The notes beneath the pieces are model-generated. The model ran no database searches, was not told the origin of the DNA, and saw nothing but the letters and a program-made list of their open reading frames with translations. 42,847 nucleotides of DNA. Origin: Aeriscardovia aeriphila. GTDB taxonomy: Bacteria; Actinomycetota; Actinomycetes; Actinomycetales; Bifidobacteriaceae. Positions 4,757 to 33,441 of this stretch are shown in pieces. The translations under genes and the position numbers were made by a program. Each line of letters opens with the position of its first letter. Within the stretch, counting starts at the first letter, position 1. Where the stretch lies: NCBI GenBank assembly GCA_949290445.1, contig CASERW010000015.1, positions 1 through 42,847 of the forward strand. Direction: 5' to 3'.

Positions 4757-4796
4757 AAAAACGGGAACTTCAAACCTGATGTTGAAGCTCCCGTTT
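4757..4796. terminator. Bidirectional rho-independent terminator
   Basis: A long inverted repeat pairs AAAACGGGA-CTTCAA (from 4757) with TTGAAG-TCCCGTTTT (to 4796) around an 8-base loop. A-rich and T-rich flanks allow it to end both the CapA gene (plus) and the SDR gene (minus), which converge here. Confidence 0.85.
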
Positions 4797-4850
4797 TCAG
4801 TTCAGCTCCCGTTTTCAGTTCGGCTCAGCTTTCAGTCCAGTTCGGCTCAG
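4786..4850. repeat. Short tandem duplications beside the terminator
   Basis: The 18-mer AGCTCCCGTTTTCAGTTC is perfectly duplicated in tandem at 4786-4803 and 4804-4821, the first copy being the 3' arm of the terminator. CAGTTCGGCTCAG then occurs at 4816-4828 and 4838-4850, with further degenerate TTCGGTTC copies to about 4880. It looks like slippage expansion of the terminator arm between two convergent genes. Confidence 0.8.
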
Positions 4851-4882
4851 TTTTCGGTTCGGTTCAGCCTTCAGTTTCCCAC

Positions 4883-16910: not shown

Positions 16911-19646
16911 GTGGAGGGTCCCGATATCACGGCAGTAGAAGCCGTTATTGATAATGGTAAGTTCGGCAAGCGCACGCTGCGCTTCGAGACCGGTCGTCTC
17001 GCCCAGCAGGCTGATGGTGCCGTTGCAGCCTATCTTGATGAAGATTCTATGATCCTGTCCACCACTGTGGCAGGCCACGCACCAAAGGAAAACTACGACT
17101 TCTTCCCGCTGACGGTTGATGTTCAAGAGAAGATGTATGCAGCTGGTCGCATCCCAGGCTCCTTCTTCCGTCGCGAAGGTCGCCCATCGACAGAGGCAAT
17201 TTTGGCATGCCGCGTGATTGATCGCCCATTGCGCCCTCTGTTCCCACACACTCTTCGTAACGAGGTTCAGATCACCGCTACCGTGCTGGCAGTCGACCCT
17301 GATGACTCCTACGATATGCTCGCTCTGAACGCAGCATCCGCATCCACCACCATCTCCGGCCTGCCATTCGAAGGCCCAGTCGGCGGTTTGCGCTTGGCTT
17401 TGATCGACGGCCAGTGGGTCGCCTTCCCACGCTGGTCTGAGCGTGAAAAGGCCACCTTCGAGCTCGTCGTGGCCGGCCGCATCACCCCAGCCAACGACGT
17501 TGCAATCGCCATGATCGAAGCTGGCGCTGGCAAGAACGCCTGGGACCTCATCTACAACGGCAACGGCGTCAAGCCAGACGAGAAGGTCGTTGCTGAGGGT
17601 ATCGAGGCTGCTAAGCCATTCATCCGCACCCTGTGCGACGCCATCAACGAACTCAAGAAGAAGGCTGCAAAGCCAACCAAGGAGTTCCAGCTCTTCCCTG
17701 AATACACCGATGAATTCTACAAGCGCGTCGAAGAGCTCGCCGCCGCCGACCTCGACCCAGCACTCGTCATTGCTGACAAGATCGAGCGCCAGGAGCGCGT
17801 GCGCGAAATCAAGGAGAAGGTTGCCCAAACCCTCGCCTCTGAATTCGAAGATATGAGCGACGAAGAGAAGGACCGCGAGCTGGGCAACGCCTTCAAGGCT
17901 TTGCAGCGCTCCATCGTCCGCCGTCGCGTGCTCGAAAAGGGTGAGCGCATTGACGGCCGTGGCCTGAAGGATATCCGCACCCTCTCCGCTGAGGTTGACG
18001 TGGTTCCTCGCGTCCACGGTTCTTCCCTCTTCCAGCGCGGCGAAACCCAGATTATGGGTATCACCACACTGGGCATGCTCAAGATGCGTCAGGAAATGGA
18101 CGCACTCTCCGGCCCAGACACCAAGCGCTACATCCACCAGTACAACATGCCACCGTTCTCCACTGGTGAGACGGGCCGCTTGGGCTCTCCGAAGCGTCGC
18201 GAAGTGGGCCACGGCGACCTCGCTGAGCGTGCACTCGTTCCTGTGATCCCAAGCGAGGAAGAGTTCCCATACGCCATCCGCCAAGTCTCCGAAGCCATGG
18301 GCTCCAACGGCTCGACTTCCATGGGCTCTGTGTGCGCCTCCACTCTGGCTTTGCTCGACGCTGGCGTGCCGCTGAGGGCTCCTGTTGCTGGTATCTCCAT
18401 GGGCTTGATGTCCGGCGAGGTCAACGGCAAGCAGGTGTTCAAGATCCTCACCGATATTCAGGGCGCTGAAGATGCCTTCGGTGATATGGACTTCAAGGTC
18501 GCTGGTACCTCGGAGTTCGTCACCGCCCTGCAGCTCGATACCAAGCTTGACGGCATCCCAGCCGATATTTTGGCTGAGGCTTTGCAGCAGGCTTACGAAG
18601 CTCGCACCACCATTCTCGAGATTATCAACGAGTGCATTGATGGCCCAGCTGAGCTGGCTCCATCTGCTCCTCGCATCCTGACCTTGCACGTTCCAGTCGA
18701 TAAGATCGGCGAGATCATCGGGCCAAAGGGCAAGATGATCAACCAGATTCAGGAGGATACCGGCGCTGACATCACTATCGAAGATGACGGCACTGTCTAC
18801 ATCGCTTCTGATGAGGGTGAGGCTGCTCAGAAGGCTTCCGACGTCATTGACCAGATTGTCAATCCTCATGTTCCTGAGGCTGGCGAACACTTCACCGGAA
18901 CTGTGGTGAAGACCACCAGCTTCGGTGCCTTCGTCAACCTGACCCCAGGTACTGACGGTTTGCTGCACATCAGCCAGATTCGCAACCTGCGCGATGGTGA
19001 GCGTGTGGAGCGCGTTGAGGATGTTCTCAAGGAAGGCGACAGCGTGGATGTTGTCGTTGAGAGCGTTGACGACCGCGGCAAGATCTCCCTGGCAATCCCA
19101 GGCTTTGAGAACCAGACTCCAGCACGTGAGGAGCGCCCAGCTCGTCGCCCACGCCGTCGCTATGACGACGAAGAGGAAGAGAGCGAGGATCGTCGCCCAG
19201 CTCGCCGTCCACGTCGTCGTCACGATGAGGACGAAGAAGAAGGCGAGGAGCGTCCAGCACGCCGCCCACGTCGTCACTATGAGGATGACGAGGATGATGA
19301 GGTTTTTGAGCGTCCAGCACGTTCGGCTCGCCGTCCACGCCGTCGCGTGAGCGAGGATGACGCTGCTGAGGATGATTATGAGCCACGCCGTCCACGTCGC
19401 CGTCACTATGAGGATGACGAGGATGCTGCTTCTGAGGATCGTTCCGACAGGCAGGAGCGTGAGCGTTCTGAGCGTCGTCCACGTCGCCGCTACGATGACG
19501 AAGAGCGCAGCTACCGTCCACGTCGCAGCCGTGGCAACCGCGAGTTCAGCGCTGATGAGAACGCTTACCGCGAGTACCATGAGGATCGCGTGGAGCGTTC
19601 CGAGCGTCCGCGTCGCCGCGTTGTGCGCCGCCGCTACGAGGACTGA
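16911..19646 (+). CDS. pnp: Polynucleotide phosphorylase with long mixed-charge tail
   Basis: 911 residues from a GTG preceded by AAAGGAGG. It degrades RNA phosphorolytically from the 3' end and, in actinobacteria, can make (p)ppGpp-related nucleotides. Two RNase PH domains lie at about residues 10-240 and 340-570 ([14 protein letters not shown] in the first; [25 protein letters not shown] and the catalytic [19 protein letters not shown] region in the second), a KH domain at about 588-650 (GPKG at 604-607) and an S1 domain at about 659-729. Residues from about 738 to the end form an unusual tail of alternating Arg-rich and Asp/Glu-rich blocks, repeating RPARRPRRR then acidic stretches. The tail is likely disordered and RNA- or partner-binding. 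The word TGATAATCT lies on the minus strand at 18619. Confidence 0.96.
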
Positions 19647-27663: not shown

Positions 27664-28608
27664 ATGTCCACTGAAGTAAGGCATGGCTGGCTTATCACCG
27701 TTCTGGCCACCGGCCAGCAGTATCGTTATATTCCGGGCGAAAGCGTCATCATCGGGCGCACCCCTCTGCGCCCAGCATCCTTGCCTGACGACAACTCCAA
27801 GCGTTTGGACATCGACGACCCCCAGCGCTCTATGTCGAAGCGTCACCTTTCGCTGAAAGTGACCGAGACTGGCGTGGGCATCATCACCGACCTCAACTCG
27901 ACGAATGGCACCTATGTGGTGCGTGACGACGGCCGCCTCATCAAGATTCCTGCCAACAAGCCACTGTCCCTCGACCAGCCTGACGTCAAGCTCCAGCTGG
28001 GTGAGGTGGGTGTTGAGCTCAAGCAGTTCGCCATTCAAGAGCAGCGCCCAGTAGAAACTCCTGATCTGTTCGGCGCTCGTCCCGCTCAGCAGCAGCGCAA
28101 CCTCAACGTGGACGAGATCGTTGACGTGCGCGAAGGCGAGCCGACGGATGCCTTCTCCGCAGGTCAGGTTCGTCAGGCCGTGCAAAGCGCGCAAGGCGTG
28201 AACTTTGACCCAGCCGCTGCACAAGCCCAGCAAGTCCAACAGGCAGCACAGGCCCAGCAGGCTCAGCACGCGGTGAATAACCTTCAGGCTCAGCCTTCCC
28301 AAAACGCTCCTGCCGGTTCGACGGGTTATGAGCCTGGCTCTGTGTTTGACCGTTTGACTCGCGGGCAGATGAGCCAGAAGCCTGCTGTTGAAATTGATGG
28401 CATGACCTCCGACGAGGCTAAGACTACCGCCGATCAGCAGCGTCAGTATGCGATGGCTCAGCACCATGAGTTCCTGCCATTCTTGGCGCTCAACCCGTAC
28501 CTGTACGCCGATTTGTACCAGTGGCTCGGTTCGCTGGGTGACCCAGATATCGCTCAGGCTTTGAGCACGAACCCTGGGTATAAGGCTTTCCGTGAGGCAC
28601 GCTCCTAA
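27664..28608 (+). CDS. FHA-domain protein
   Basis: 314 residues. An FHA domain spans about residues 8-120: ESVIIGRTP, then RSMSKRHLSLKV (the phospho-threonine-binding S-x-x-H) and DLNSTNGTYVV. A Gln/Ala-rich linker (about 145-230) leads to a short conserved C-terminal helical part, FLPFLALNPYLYADLYQWLGSLGDPDIAQAL. FHA domains read phosphothreonine, so a Ser/Thr kinase such as PknB should be its partner. The next gene, 73 bp downstream, encodes a giant helicase-like protein; shared order and strand suggest the two work together. TTCGGAGG precedes the ATG. Confidence 0.85.
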   Translation: MSTEVRHGWLITVLATGQQYRYIPGESVIIGRTPLRPASLPDDNSKRLDIDDPQRSMSKRHLSLKVTETGVGIITDLNSTNGTYVVRDDGRLIKIPANKPLSLDQPDVKLQLGEVGVELKQFAIQEQRPVETPDLFGARPAQQQRNLNVDEIVDVREGEPTDAFSAGQVRQAVQSAQGVNFDPAAAQAQQVQQAAQAQQAQHAVNNLQAQPSQNAPAGSTGYEPGSVFDRLTRGQMSQKPAVEIDGMTSDEAKTTADQQRQYAMAQHHEFLPFLALNPYLYADLYQWLGSLGDPDIAQALSTNPGYKAFREARS

Positions 28609-28681
28609 GTTTGCCTGTTCTGCTCGTTGTGTCGCATGCTCCTTGCCGCAATGGTGGCGGTGAGCCAGATGGAAGGTAATT

Positions 28682-31600
28682 GTGAATACAGAAGCTAATC
28701 AGTCTGCTAATCCTGCTGCGCAAAATGCCAAGCCGCTGGGCCAAACCAAGCTTGCTCAATGGTTAAAGCCCACGTTGAAACAGCATTACAGTTCGGCGTT
28801 GAGCAATGCTGATAATCTCAAGGCAAGTCTTGACCTGTCGGGGGCGAACCCGAACGGCATGTCGCGCCTCTTGAGCTCCGGCAGTGCGACGGTGGACATG
28901 CTTTTCCGCGAGTCGGCGACGCGTATGAGCGCCGAGCGCGAAGTGGATCGTCTGTGGCACCTCACGCGCGAGAATGGCGAGGAGTACGGTTCTGAGGAGC
29001 TTTCTGTCGCTTATGGTTTCGCTTCCTGGACGGCTCCAGATTATCAGTCCGCGAAATCCCCTGCTTCTGCTTCACCTGCTGCTTCGTCCGCTGACGCGCG
29101 TGAAGCCCAGCCGCTGATCTCCCAAGGGGAGAAGAAGGAAGGTGTTGAACCGCAAGCTGATTCTGCTGAGGCATCAGCGCAGTCTTCTGAGCAAGCGTCT
29201 GAGAAAGCTTCAGCGCAAGCGTCTGAGCCGGCTGCTGAGCAAGTACAAGCTGCAGCTGAGCCAACTGAGCAGGGTAGTAGCGTGCAAGCTGCGGCAGCCG
29301 CTCAGCCGGTCGCAGCCGCTCAGCCGGCTGTAACTACACAGCCAGCTGCTCAGCAGGCGTCCACTCAACCTGCGCCAGCACAGAAGCAGAGGAAAGCTGC
29401 AGGCGAACCAATCCAGGTTGAGCATATGCCTGTTGTGCTCTTCCCAGCGCAACTGGAAATTCCGGCAAACAAGGTGATGAGCCAAGCACAGCTCAAGCTC
29501 ATCAAGCGCGTAACCATCAACCCGGTCTTCCTTTCGCACTTGGCACAATGCGGTGTGCACCTCAACATTGACGAGATCATCACCTCCTCCGAATACCGCC
29601 CAGGTGCTGTCAACGAGCGCTTCATCTTGCAAAAAATCGAAGTTGCCGTGCAAGATGTCATCCCGAATTTCACCATCGACAAGACGATGATCGTCGGCTG
29701 CTTCAACGATCCTCGCTTCATGCTCGCCGCACGCTCGGCAGCAATCTTGCTCGACGCGAGGAACCGTGCGAAAACGCCAGTTATCATCCAAGCTCTCGCC
29801 GAAGATGCAGGTTCTATCCGTGCTTTGCATGACGCGCAACTGGAAAGCTTCAGCCAAGAGGATGCCGACCCTCACGCCGAGCTGGAAGTAGGCGATGTGT
29901 CCAATACCGTGCGTTACGCAGCACGCCAGGTGTCGAAGGGAACTTCGCTGTTTATCAACACCCCGATGGGCAATGAATCCGCTCGCCAAGCACTTGCCGT
30001 GGCATCACGAGTAGCCCAAACGGGCAAATCGGTGCTGTATGTGGCTGGTAATCTCGAGCAAAAGAAACTCTTTAAACAGCAGGCCGAGCATAACAAGATG
30101 GCCTCTGCTATCGCCGACGTTGCCGACCCAGAAGTGGCACGCGACATCGACGCTACCCTCGTCGCCGCGCTCAACAGCAAGAATCACGCCGACCAGTCGA
30201 TGAGCGCCTTCATTCGCACCTCTGACGAACTCTCCGGTCTGCGCCAACGTTTGAGCGGCTACTTCGACGAGCTGCACCACGAGGTCAAGCCCTGGTCGGT
30301 GAGCGCTTACGATGCCATCGAACACTTGGCCAAGCTCGCCAGCCTGCCGCAAAGGCCACGTAACCGCGTGCGCTTCAGCCAGCAAACCGCTCAACGCTTA
30401 GCCGGCAAGCTCGATGACTACGCCGACCAGCTGGTGCGTTTGGGCGAGCTTCACGGCTACACCTTGGGCCCGCAGGATACCACCTGGTACCATGCCGCAC
30501 TCTACACGCATGAGCAAGCCCACCAGGCGATGATCCGCGTGATCCGCCTGCTGGACAAGACCATGCCAACACTGCGCAAGCAGATTGCCGCAGCAGTCAC
30601 CGCCACCGGCTTCCCCGTGCCACAATCTCCAGCCGAATGGGGCCAGCAGCTCAACGTTTTGCAAGGAGTGCGCCAAGTTCTCGACGTGTTCACCCCTGAA
30701 GTATTCGAACGCGATCTCGACCCCTTCCTTGAAGCAACGCTGAGCAAGAAGGAGCGTAAGGAGCGCAAGGGTCAGGCCGGTTCGATGGGCTGGTGGGAGA
30801 GGCATCGCATGAAGCGAGAAATCCGCCACCTGCTACGCCCAGGAATGCACGATCTCGACCTTCATGAGGTGCTGGAAGAAGTTCGCCACCAGTCTCGCCG
30901 CTGGCATGACATGGTCACACGTGGCGGCTGGCCGACCATTCCAGACGGCTTGGATGAGATGGTCAACTCCTTCGACGACCTCAACTCTGACATCACCGCT
31001 TTGGACGCCGTTTTGGCATCCACTCCGCGCATCACGCCGCTGGGAGAGCTCAGCTTCGTCCAACTCGACCACGACCTGCGTGCCCTCTACGCCGATCGCA
31101 AGGACCTCGACTCTCTGCCCGAACGCGCCAGTTTGGAGCGCGACCTCGTCCAGGCGGGCTTGGGCGACTTGCTGGAGAACTTGTCGAGCAGGCATATTGA
31201 AGCCGACCAGGCTCCTGCCGAGTTGCGCTTGGCATGGTGGTCGACCGTTTTCGAGCAGCTAGTTCATACGACAGGCATCTTGAGCGATCAAGATGGCTCC
31301 TTGTTGCGCCAGACGGTGGAGGACTTCCGCTCCTTGGACGCCAAGCACATCCAGACTATCGGCCCGCGCGTATGCCACGAGCTGACCAAGAAGCTCGTGC
31401 AACTGCTCTATTCGGATGAGGCGAAGGCCAATCGCTTCCACCAGTTGCTGAGCACTTCGGCTGCCTCGAATATCACACAGATTGCCGCGAAGTTCCCTGA
31501 CCTCATGGCTGCTGCAAAGCCGATTTGGGTGGTGAGTGCTGGTGAGGCTGCTCGTTTTGGCTCCGCCCTTCACGCCGATGTGGTAATCCTGGACGGTTTT

Positions 31601-33073
31601 GAGCGTGCGAGCGTCGAACAGATTATTGTGGCGTTGGCTGCTGGAACGAGTGCCGCGGTGGTTGCCGATGGCGAGCACACTGTCAACCCTGTGTTGCGTT
31701 ATGTGATGAAGCTTCTGCCGGTGGTGGAGGTTCCTGTTGCGCCGGCATCTCTTCCTGCCGTTCTCGTCCAGTTCTTGCTCGCCCATCACCGTGAGCTTGC
31801 GGTTTTGCCTGCTCCTGGCGTGCCGTGGGATGCGCCGGTGGGCTTGAAGACTCGCCAGTCCATCAACTGGGTGTTCACCAACTCGACGGGTTTGCCGGTG
31901 AACAATTCGGTGGTTAGCTCGACGAAGGAAGGCGTGGCCGCAGTAGTGGCTGAAGTTCGCCGTCAGGCTGGCGACCCTGCGCGCTCGTCGGCACATCTGA
32001 GCATTATTACGGTGACTGACGAGGACCGTCAGCTTATCGTCGAGGCGCTGAACGGTGAGGCTCGCAGCTCGGAGGTGATGCGTCGCTTCTTGGCCAAGGT
32101 TTCCGTGTTGACTATCGCTTCGGTGGGTGCAGCACTGCCGGGTGATGTGATTATTTCGACGAGTTTTGGCAAGCTTCCGAGCGGCACTCTGCTTCAGCAG
32201 TTTGGCGAGGTGGGTCAGCCTGGTGGTGACATGCTGCTGTATTCGGCGCTGGAATTGGTTCGTGGTAATCTCACGATCGTCTCGGCCTTCAAGGCTGCTG
32301 ACATGGTTGACTCGAGATTGACACAACCTGGTTCTCGCCTGCTCAAGGATATTCTCGCCTGGGCTGAGAAGGTGTCGCGCGAGCAGCATTCCGCCATTCG
32401 TCGTACGGATCCGAATTCGGCTGCCCAATGGCAGGCGGTGGAGCATATCCAGTCTGCTGGTGTGCTGCTCAGCGATCTGGCTCAGCGTTTGCGTGCTCGC
32501 GGCTATGAGACGGCGGTGTCGTATGGAGTGAATTCGGGCACCTCGCGTTTGAACCTGCCTTTGGTGGTGGGTAAGCCGGGTGAAGGCTTCACTTTGGCCG
32601 TGTTTACTGATGACGAGGCTTTCATGGCTGTTCCGTCTTTGCGTTTGCGTCATCGCACCTACCCGGCTCAGCTTGCTGCTGCTGGGTGGAAGACCTTGCA
32701 GGTATGGAGCGTGGGCTTGTTTGTTGACCCTGACCGCCAGATTGCCAGAATTGAGAAGCTTCTCCCACTCGATGCGGATACCAAGCAGAAGCTCGAGCAA
32801 GCTCACACCGCATTGTCGGATTTGGTTGAGCAGAGCAAGGTGGAGCATCCGGTGGGTTCTGAAGAGCATGAAGCAGGGGAGCAGGCTCAGGTTGAAAATG
32901 AGCTGACTACTGGTGAGTCGGTGAGCGAACCTGGTGGCGAAGCGGCTTCGTCACCTGCTGGTGATGTGCAAGGAGTGGATCACTCTGAGGTGGAGTCTGC
33001 ACAGTCTGCAGAGTCTGCACAGTCTGCAGAGTCTGCACAGTCTGAATCGGAGGAGCAGCATGACGCTCAGTGA
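28682..33073 (+). CDS. Giant SF1 helicase/nuclease-like protein lacking catalytic motifs
   Basis: 1463 residues from a GTG preceded by GGAAGG. After about 115 conserved residues comes a low-complexity Ala/Gln/Ser/Pro stretch (about 120-240). The core aligns in layout with SF1 helicases: where GxxGTGKS should stand, residues 426-435 read NTPMGNESAR; where DEASQ should stand, residues 971-977 read DGFERAS, followed by VVADGEHT as in helicase motif III. The C-terminal domain (about 1270-1375) resembles the PD-(D/E)xK domain attached to such helicases (GYETAVSYGVN..., RHRTYPAQLAAAGWKTLQVWSVGLFVDP), but the metal-binding Asp is N1291 and the Glu position is F1308. It ends in an acidic tail with an 18-bp tandem repeat. 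ATPase and nuclease activity therefore seem lost; a scaffold or sensor role with the FHA protein is inferred. Confidence 0.7.
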   Translation: MNTEANQSANPAAQNAKPLGQTKLAQWLKPTLKQHYSSALSNADNLKASLDLSGANPNGMSRLLSSGSATVDMLFRESATRMSAEREVDRLWHLTRENGEEYGSEELSVAYGFASWTAPDYQSAKSPASASPAASSADAREAQPLISQGEKKEGVEPQADSAEASAQSSEQASEKASAQASEPAAEQVQAAAEPTEQGSSVQAAAAAQPVAAAQPAVTTQPAAQQASTQPAPAQKQRKAAGEPIQVEHMPVVLFPAQLEIPANKVMSQAQLKLIKRVTINPVFLSHLAQCGVHLNIDEIITSSEYRPGAVNERFILQKIEVAVQDVIPNFTIDKTMIVGCFNDPRFMLAARSAAILLDARNRAKTPVIIQALAEDAGSIRALHDAQLESFSQEDADPHAELEVGDVSNTVRYAARQVSKGTSLFINTPMGNESARQALAVASRVAQTGKSVLYVAGNLEQKKLFKQQAEHNKMASAIADVADPEVARDIDATLVAALNSKNHADQSMSAFIRTSDELSGLRQRLSGYFDELHHEVKPWSVSAYDAIEHLAKLASLPQRPRNRVRFSQQTAQRLAGKLDDYADQLVRLGELHGYTLGPQDTTWYHAALYTHEQAHQAMIRVIRLLDKTMPTLRKQIAAAVTATGFPVPQSPAEWGQQLNVLQGVRQVLDVFTPEVFERDLDPFLEATLSKKERKERKGQAGSMGWWERHRMKREIRHLLRPGMHDLDLHEVLEEVRHQSRRWHDMVTRGGWPTIPDGLDEMVNSFDDLNSDITALDAVLASTPRITPLGELSFVQLDHDLRALYADRKDLDSLPERASLERDLVQAGLGDLLENLSSRHIEADQAPAELRLAWWSTVFEQLVHTTGILSDQDGSLLRQTVEDFRSLDAKHIQTIGPRVCHELTKKLVQLLYSDEAKANRFHQLLSTSAASNITQIAAKFPDLMAAAKPIWVVSAGEAARFGSALHADVVILDGFERASVEQIIVALAAGTSAAVVADGEHTVNPVLRYVMKLLPVVEVPVAPASLPAVLVQFLLAHHRELAVLPAPGVPWDAPVGLKTRQSINWVFTNSTGLPVNNSVVSSTKEGVAAVVAEVRRQAGDPARSSAHLSIITVTDEDRQLIVEALNGEARSSEVMRRFLAKVSVLTIASVGAALPGDVIISTSFGKLPSGTLLQQFGEVGQPGGDMLLYSALELVRGNLTIVSAFKAADMVDSRLTQPGSRLLKDILAWAEKVSREQHSAIRRTDPNSAAQWQAVEHIQSAGVLLSDLAQRLRARGYETAVSYGVNSGTSRLNLPLVVGKPGEGFTLAVFTDDEAFMAVPSLRLRHRTYPAQLAAAGWKTLQVWSVGLFVDPDRQIARIEKLLPLDADTKQKLEQAHTALSDLVEQSKVEHPVGSEEHEAGEQAQVENELTTGESVSEPGGEAASSPAGDVQGVDHSEVESAQSAESAQSAESAQSESEEQHDAQ
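32993..33046 (+). repeat. Three 18-bp tandem repeats in the coding tail
   Basis: GAGTCTGCACAGTCTGCA occurs at 32993-33010 and 33011-33028, and a one-base variant at 33029-33046. It encodes the repeated residues ESAQSA. Copy number may vary between strains by slippage without shifting the frame. Confidence 0.9.
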
Positions 33074-33275
33074 GAAGCCAAAGCGCAAGCCGCGCCAGCA
33101 TAAGCGCGTGGTGTACAAAGGCAAAGAGAAGTTCACGGTAAGCCTCTCCGAGTTTGAAACGGGACCGACAACAGAGCAGAAAATTGAAGCGAAGAAGGAA
33201 GAGGAGCGGTTGTTGCGCGAGCTTCCACCGCACTTCTCCCTCTTCAGCGCTGAGCGCGACCAAGCGGGAGTGTAG
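33060..33275 (+). CDS. Small basic protein coupled to the helicase-like gene
   Basis: 71 residues from ATG 33060, with GGAGG at 33049-33053; it overlaps the end of the giant gene by 14 bases. The first 25 residues are strongly basic (KPKRKPRQHKRVVYKGKEKF), suggesting nucleic-acid binding, followed by a charged helix EQKIEAKKEEERLLREL. No family is recognised. Tight overlap implies coupled translation and a shared function with the FHA and helicase-like proteins. Confidence 0.65.
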   Translation: MTLSEKPKRKPRQHKRVVYKGKEKFTVSLSEFETGPTTEQKIEAKKEEERLLRELPPHFSLFSAERDQAGV

Positions 33276-33404: not shown

Positions 33405-33441
33405 AAAAAGAAGGCCTGCAGGTAAAACCTGCAGGCCTTTT
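33405..33441. terminator. Perfect bidirectional terminator
   Basis: AAGGCCTGCAGGT (33411-33423) pairs perfectly with ACCTGCAGGCCTT (33427-33439) around AAA, with A-rich and T-rich flanks. It separates the plus-strand operon from convergent mscL. The 187-bp gap holds nothing else apart from a TGATAATCT word at 33448. Confidence 0.92.

Follow-up and report, generated by a model that had tools for sequence, protein, structure and literature searches.

A probable scaffold descended from a helicase-nuclease in a conserved three-gene cluster of Bifidobacteriaceae

Why would a gene stay open and almost unchanged when its product has lost every catalytic site of a helicase-nuclease? This question is raised by a stretch of 42,847 nucleotides from Aeriscardovia aeriphila (contig CASERW010000015.1, hereafter the window), in which three genes follow one another on the forward strand. 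They encode an FHA protein of 314 residues (27664–28608), a protein of 1463 residues with a GTG start (28682–33073, hereafter the large protein) and a small protein of 71 residues (33060–33275), whose gene overlaps the end of the large gene by 14 nt. A preliminary description, made from the sequence without database searches, had taken the large protein for a dead superfamily 1 (SF1) helicase-nuclease with a retained non-enzymatic role and the three genes for a possible complex; its three open reading frames (ORFs) are borne out in position and length. No account of these genes as a set turned up in the literature searched. Based on the comparisons below, the large protein is probably a domesticated, non-catalytic scaffold that descends from an anti-phage-type helicase-nuclease.

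Homology and catalytic positions of the large protein

In a profile-profile comparison (hhalign), the large proteins of Bifidobacteriaceae align with intact helicase-nucleases at a probability of 100 and E=5e-107 over 1083 columns, in agreement with the homology first proposed. In the Pfam search, residues 1265–1359 match MTES_1575 at E=8.5e-8 with 32.6 bits against a cut-off of 38.2; the score lies just under the cut-off in this search and at the cut-off in another, and 25 of 25 orthologues match the family at E<=0.01. DUF4011 gave no Pfam match in the window protein, whose N-terminal residues do align with relatives; the match is present in the syntenic orthologues L110, L141 and L111 (L, G and f numbers are our handles for loci, genomes and families). 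Additionally, the window protein matches the profiles of the defence families ProA (E=3.7e-35, 120.8 bits against a curated whole-protein cut-off of 1500) and PDC-S37 (E=3.3e-39), both more weakly than the curated members do. The profile of the intact proteins matches the solved structures of SMUBP-2, UPF1, DNA2 and SEN1, and the ancestor was therefore a UPF1-like SF1 helicase; with the dead-protein profile, no relevant match was found among solved structures.

To locate the catalytic positions, we aligned the window protein with the intact proteins L073, from another Bifidobacteriaceae genome, and L110, L141, L142 and L146, from elsewhere. The corresponding segments, each flanked on both sides by conserved anchors, are TPMGNESARQ for GPPGTGKSQT, LDGFERAS for FDEASQ, LPLVV for IDLAV and AVFTDD for AVEADG. 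The Walker A position reads GNESAR (residues 430–435, 29969–29986), with Ser433 in the place of the Lys. At the Walker B/DEAQ position, DVVILDGFERAS (residues 966–977, 31577–31612), Asp971 is kept and the Glu is replaced by Gly972. In the remnant of the nuclease fold (residues 1262–1360, 32465–32761), the Asp is replaced by Pro1293, the Glu by Phe1308 and a Gly by Asp1311. Motifs III, V and VI are lost as well, so that seven signature positions (Walker A Lys, Walker B Glu, nuclease Asp, nuclease Glu, motif III Gln, motif VI Arg and motif V Gln, in this order) read KEDEQRQ in the intact relatives and SGPFHLG in the window protein. The Walker A pattern [AG]x4GK[ST] does not occur anywhere in the 1463 residues. 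The preliminary description had read the letters GNESAR (430–435), DGFERAS (971–977), N1291 and F1308 correctly, and its P-loop, DEAQ and nuclease Glu positions stand; N1291 was rejected as the nuclease Asp position, which the alignments with intact relatives place two residues on, at Pro1293. The losses are common to the orthologues in 36 Bifidobacteriaceae loci.

Conservation of the large gene and history of the losses

The large gene is present in 112 of 121 Bifidobacteriaceae genomes, including 98 of the 100 good ones, almost always as one open frame; over the large protein, the window stands close to Aeriscardovia aeriphila (96%). In the family survey it is single-copy, its frames of ~1200–1500 residues are open in nearly all species, and it is kept in genomes of ~0.8 Mb. 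The two good genomes without it (G009 and G055) also lack rplJ and rplL, which indicates a region missing from the assemblies and no loss of the gene; the joint absence of the large and FHA genes there was rejected as evidence for the same reason.

Selection was compared by pairwise dN/dS (ratio of nonsynonymous to synonymous substitution rates) with a simple method. Between the window and L001, dN/dS is 0.036–0.038 over the RecA1, middle, RecA2 and nuclease regions, against 0.51 in the tail and in a weakly constrained linker rich in Ala, Gln, Ser, Pro and Glu (residues 126–245, 29057–29416). Other Bifidobacteriaceae pairs give 0.055–0.10, while the active defence-type paralogues L073 and L074 give 0.26. 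The regions under constraint also differ between the two kinds of protein. For intact proteins, identity is highest in the RecA motif regions (0.60) and lowest in the helical insert (0.16–0.25), whereas for the dead Bifidobacteriaceae proteins the highest values include those of this insert (0.46–0.53; residues 531–939, 30272–31498 in the window) and of the nuclease remnant (0.53). Pro1293 is invariant in 30 of 30 dead proteins, and the intact proteins all have Asp there. Because the replacement residues are themselves invariant, these data point to a new function and not to decay. Collectively, with every catalytic position changed and strong purifying selection on a single-copy gene, the large protein is, as judged from its residues, a pseudoenzyme (a pseudohelicase), that is, an enzyme homologue retained without catalytic residues, as the preliminary description had supposed. 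In the tail, directly upstream of the overlap with the small gene, a perfect 18-bp tandem repeat of 2.9 copies (32993–33044) encodes Ala-Glu-Ser/Gln-Ser repeats.

Outside Bifidobacteriaceae, the C-terminal profile matches in 235 of 248 genomes of the same order in GTDB. Among 40 order loci fetched, 34 have mscL and/or fmdB close to the large gene; the small gene, free or fused, lies between in most of them. The related loci are mostly syntenic in the order large, small, mscL, fmdB; some of their large genes are intact, and others are partly or fully dead. A smaller sample from the wider class gives profile matches in only a minority of its genomes, and some of the ten loci fetched share the same neighbors.

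To trace the losses, we used a quick maximum-likelihood tree with the motif columns removed, rooted on distant intact homologues, with support from the Shimodaira–Hasegawa-like approximate likelihood ratio test (SH-aLRT) only. The intact proteins L146, L110, L141 and L142 branch near its base. One clade of 41 rows and six coded families, Bifidobacteriaceae included, is dead throughout, and the nuclease Asp is changed to Pro in all but one row. The Walker Lys was replaced on three or more independent occasions, namely in L124, in the f25/f38 group and in the ancestor of a large group, and an earlier tree agrees. Close homologues with intact motifs, which the preliminary description had taken as a sign of misalignment or recent decay, did not emerge: the nearest intact orthologues belong to other families. 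Those in L110, L141, L142 and L146 keep all catalytic motifs, and mscL and fmdB lie near the first three, as in the dead versions. In a separate lineage outside the order (L149, L150 and L154; f38), the Walker Lys is changed to Arg and the Walker B Glu to Asp, and the nuclease Glu is kept, apparently an incomplete loss that arose on its own at a locus of the same type. Furthermore, the Bifidobacteriaceae genomes G090 and G102 carry, in addition to the dead core gene, an intact 1600-residue PDC-S37/ProA-type helicase-nuclease with all motifs (L073:1809–6635, forward strand; L074:3489–8297, reverse strand).

The small protein and the FHA protein

A small ORF with a PPH(W/F/C) ending starts between −60 and +250 nt from the stop of the large gene in 66 of 90 loci, with an overlap of 4 nt in 29; as a control, 290 further long ORFs from these loci were followed by none. 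Near the C-terminus, the small proteins share the consensus D-D-x-R-(I/L)-L-x-E-(L/V)-P-P-H-(W/F), in which the PPH letters are partly a product of selection because the sequences were gathered with a PPH-type filter; the small protein of the window has RLLRELPPHF there. Another 11 loci, which belong to five coded families, have this ending joined in frame to the large protein at its C-terminus (L040, L041, L075, L116, L117, L122, L134, L135, L137, L139 and L141), in dead, half-dead and intact versions. Since the intact L141 is among them, the association of the two proteins is independent of the catalytic loss. Adjacency across the order together with fusion is the best evidence in these sequences that the small and large proteins work jointly, and it upholds the small protein as a member of the unit. 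Its description as basic applies to part of it: the isoelectric point (pI) is 9.6 overall, 10.8 for the first 30 residues and 4.8 for the rest, and several orthologues are acidic overall.

The FHA protein contains an FHA domain (residues 29–95, 27748–27948; Pfam E=7.7e-8, 33.1 bits against a cut-off of 20.7) and, at its C-terminus, an LRV_2 domain (residues 253–302, 28420–28569; E=3.6e-12) that had gone unnoticed before. The phosphothreonine-recognition residues GR, SxSKxH and STNG are invariant in 25 FHA sequences. The large gene has the FHA gene before it and the small gene after it in 36 of 36 typical Bifidobacteriaceae loci, so the proposed three-gene order holds there, as do the residue losses. 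Upstream, rplL was found within the stretch fetched in 29 of these 36 loci, and the FHA gene is still adjacent in the others. Strong matches to the FHA-LRV protein were found only in Bifidobacteriaceae and nowhere else in the order; a role as an order-wide partner was therefore rejected. Within the family, it is plausible from these features that the protein is a phosphothreonine-reading partner of the large protein, and Ser/Thr kinases are encoded in 11 of 11 family genomes checked. An indel in an 'FHA domain protein' is a signature of the Scardovia clade (PMC4921777), possibly in the same gene.

Possible function, alternatives and related systems

As every catalytic site is lost and yet the core gene is nearly unchanged and keeps its small partner, its product is probably a scaffold or regulator and no enzyme. 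In the sequence of events that we propose, an anti-phage-type SF1 helicase with a Vsr-type nuclease would have become fixed near mscL as a vertically inherited core gene early in Actinomycetes; the ATPase and nuclease centers would then have been lost while the fold stayed under strong selection. We consider it likely that the large protein is a non-catalytic scaffold that works by way of its helical insert and nuclease-like fold and to which the small protein binds as a subunit. For Bifidobacteriaceae, the chances are about even that FHA-LRV binds phosphothreonine on the large protein or on a client, by which the complex would come under the control of Ser/Thr kinases. Binding of nucleic acid or ribosomes by the complex is conceivable, with the balance slightly against it, and RNA or ribosomes as the site of action is a guess from the UPF1-like ancestry and the ribosomal genes nearby. 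Two further parts of the preliminary description, the sensing of nucleic acid and regulation by a kinase, are likewise guesses. The full picture is tentative and less likely than not: a housekeeping complex built from a domesticated anti-phage helicase-nuclease and a PPHW/F subunit, in which the motor and nuclease died repeatedly under selection for the scaffold function, and to which FHA was added, making it kinase-regulated and possibly directed to ribosomes or RNA, as its place after rplL and its UPF1/SMUBP-2-like ancestry might suggest.

Several points weigh against the scaffold reading and its extension to FHA. A structure model of residues 940–1400 from a two-sequence alignment reached a predicted local distance difference test (pLDDT) score of 34; the fold assignment therefore rests on sequence homology. 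The tree comes from a rapid search and has a long-branch root. Moreover, the FHA protein is linked to the large protein by adjacency alone, with no fusion, and four divergent Bifidobacteriaceae loci (L040, L041, L048 and L075) have the large gene without a recognizable FHA partner.

The main rival is a remaining role in defence, in which the dead protein would be a phage sensor, a binder of phage nucleic acid or a decoy, and the small protein the effector. Its nearest annotated families, Hhe, ProA and PDC-S37, are anti-phage systems, and a defensive ancestor is possible, since intact orthologues at the same locus have both catalytic centers together with the small protein. For the present form, such a role is unsupported because the gene is core and syntenic; it is also single-copy in the family survey, lies among housekeeping neighbors, persists in reduced genomes and evolves slowly (dN/dS 0.04–0.1 in Bifidobacteriaceae against 0.26 for L073/L074). 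We regard it as unlikely. Slightly less probable still is that the three genes are unrelated neighbors held together by slow rearrangement. The region is generally conserved, with rplJ, rplL, mscL and fmdB around; against this, the small gene accompanies the large one across the order, with fusions in 11 loci, and the FHA gene remains adjacent even where rplL was not found in the stretch examined. Chance is the more likely explanation for FHA than for the small protein. An enzyme that still uses ATP or cuts nucleic acid through unusual residues is improbable: Asp971 of Walker B and Asp1310, Arg1321, Arg1325 and Trp1336 of the nuclease fold are invariant or nearly so, but against it stand the joint loss of the Walker Lys, Walker B Glu, motif III Gln, motif VI Arg and both nuclease acids and the absence of any alternative Walker A pattern. 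Recent pseudogene decay, with function gone and stops not yet accumulated, would explain the loss of all catalytic motifs and was rejected as almost certainly wrong, given the long frames open in nearly all species, a dN/dS of 0.036 over the dead domains, and losses common to Bifidobacteriaceae and several other families with invariant replacements such as Pro1293.

The large protein shares full-length homology and the order of domains with Hhe, ProA and PDC-S37 (DUF4011, SF1 helicase and Vsr-type nuclease), where for DUF4011 the Pfam match comes from syntenic orthologues, and intact orthologues at its locus score at least 800 bits with these profiles. In contrast, the window protein has lost all catalytic motifs, is shorter, reaches 121 of 1500 bits and belongs to a syntenic core gene accompanied by the small gene and, in Bifidobacteriaceae, by the FHA gene. 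'Gao Hhe' is in use as a defence-system name (PMC13249269). Caution is needed: searches with Hhe, ProA or PDC-S37 profiles can take core inactive homologues of Actinomycetes for defence systems. The C-terminal domain matches MTES_1575 (PF18741), a restriction endonuclease (REase) family described in PMC3710099, but its catalytic Asp and Glu are replaced. In Pseudomonas aeruginosa, the defence hotspot cDHS1 is flanked by a core DUF4011 gene that has a small, conserved hypothetical gene next to it (PMC10250203); it resembles the large gene by description and differs in its phylum and in bordering a defence hotspot. Pseudohelicases are rare, with only two proposed cases counted in one paper (PMC9539457). 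Yeast Utp25, which is essential and acts in ribosome assembly, and Deinococcus radiodurans PriA (PMC9539457) are likewise helicases retained without catalytic function, but they belong to the DEAD-box and PriA families, have no nuclease domain and do not derive from a defence protein. The family of the large protein represents a large set of dead helicase-nucleases conserved as a core gene. Its orthologues at related loci are intact, half-dead or fully dead, so that the proposed change from defence enzyme to housekeeping scaffold can be put directly to the test. The three genes also stand out as a core bifidobacterial cluster to which no function has been assigned.

Elsewhere in the window, a terminator-like stem-loop (33411–33439), a consensus match only, lies between the small gene and the convergent mscL. 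Intergenic tandem repeats occur at 1184–1284 (units of 23/46 bp) and 4786–4876 (units of 17/39 bp), respectively. A PNPase-like gene with RNase_PH, S1 and KH domains (16911–19646) contains a 57–60-bp repeat at 19128–19294 that codes for an Arg/acid-rich stretch, and in its region a 945-residue ORF is open on the opposite strand.

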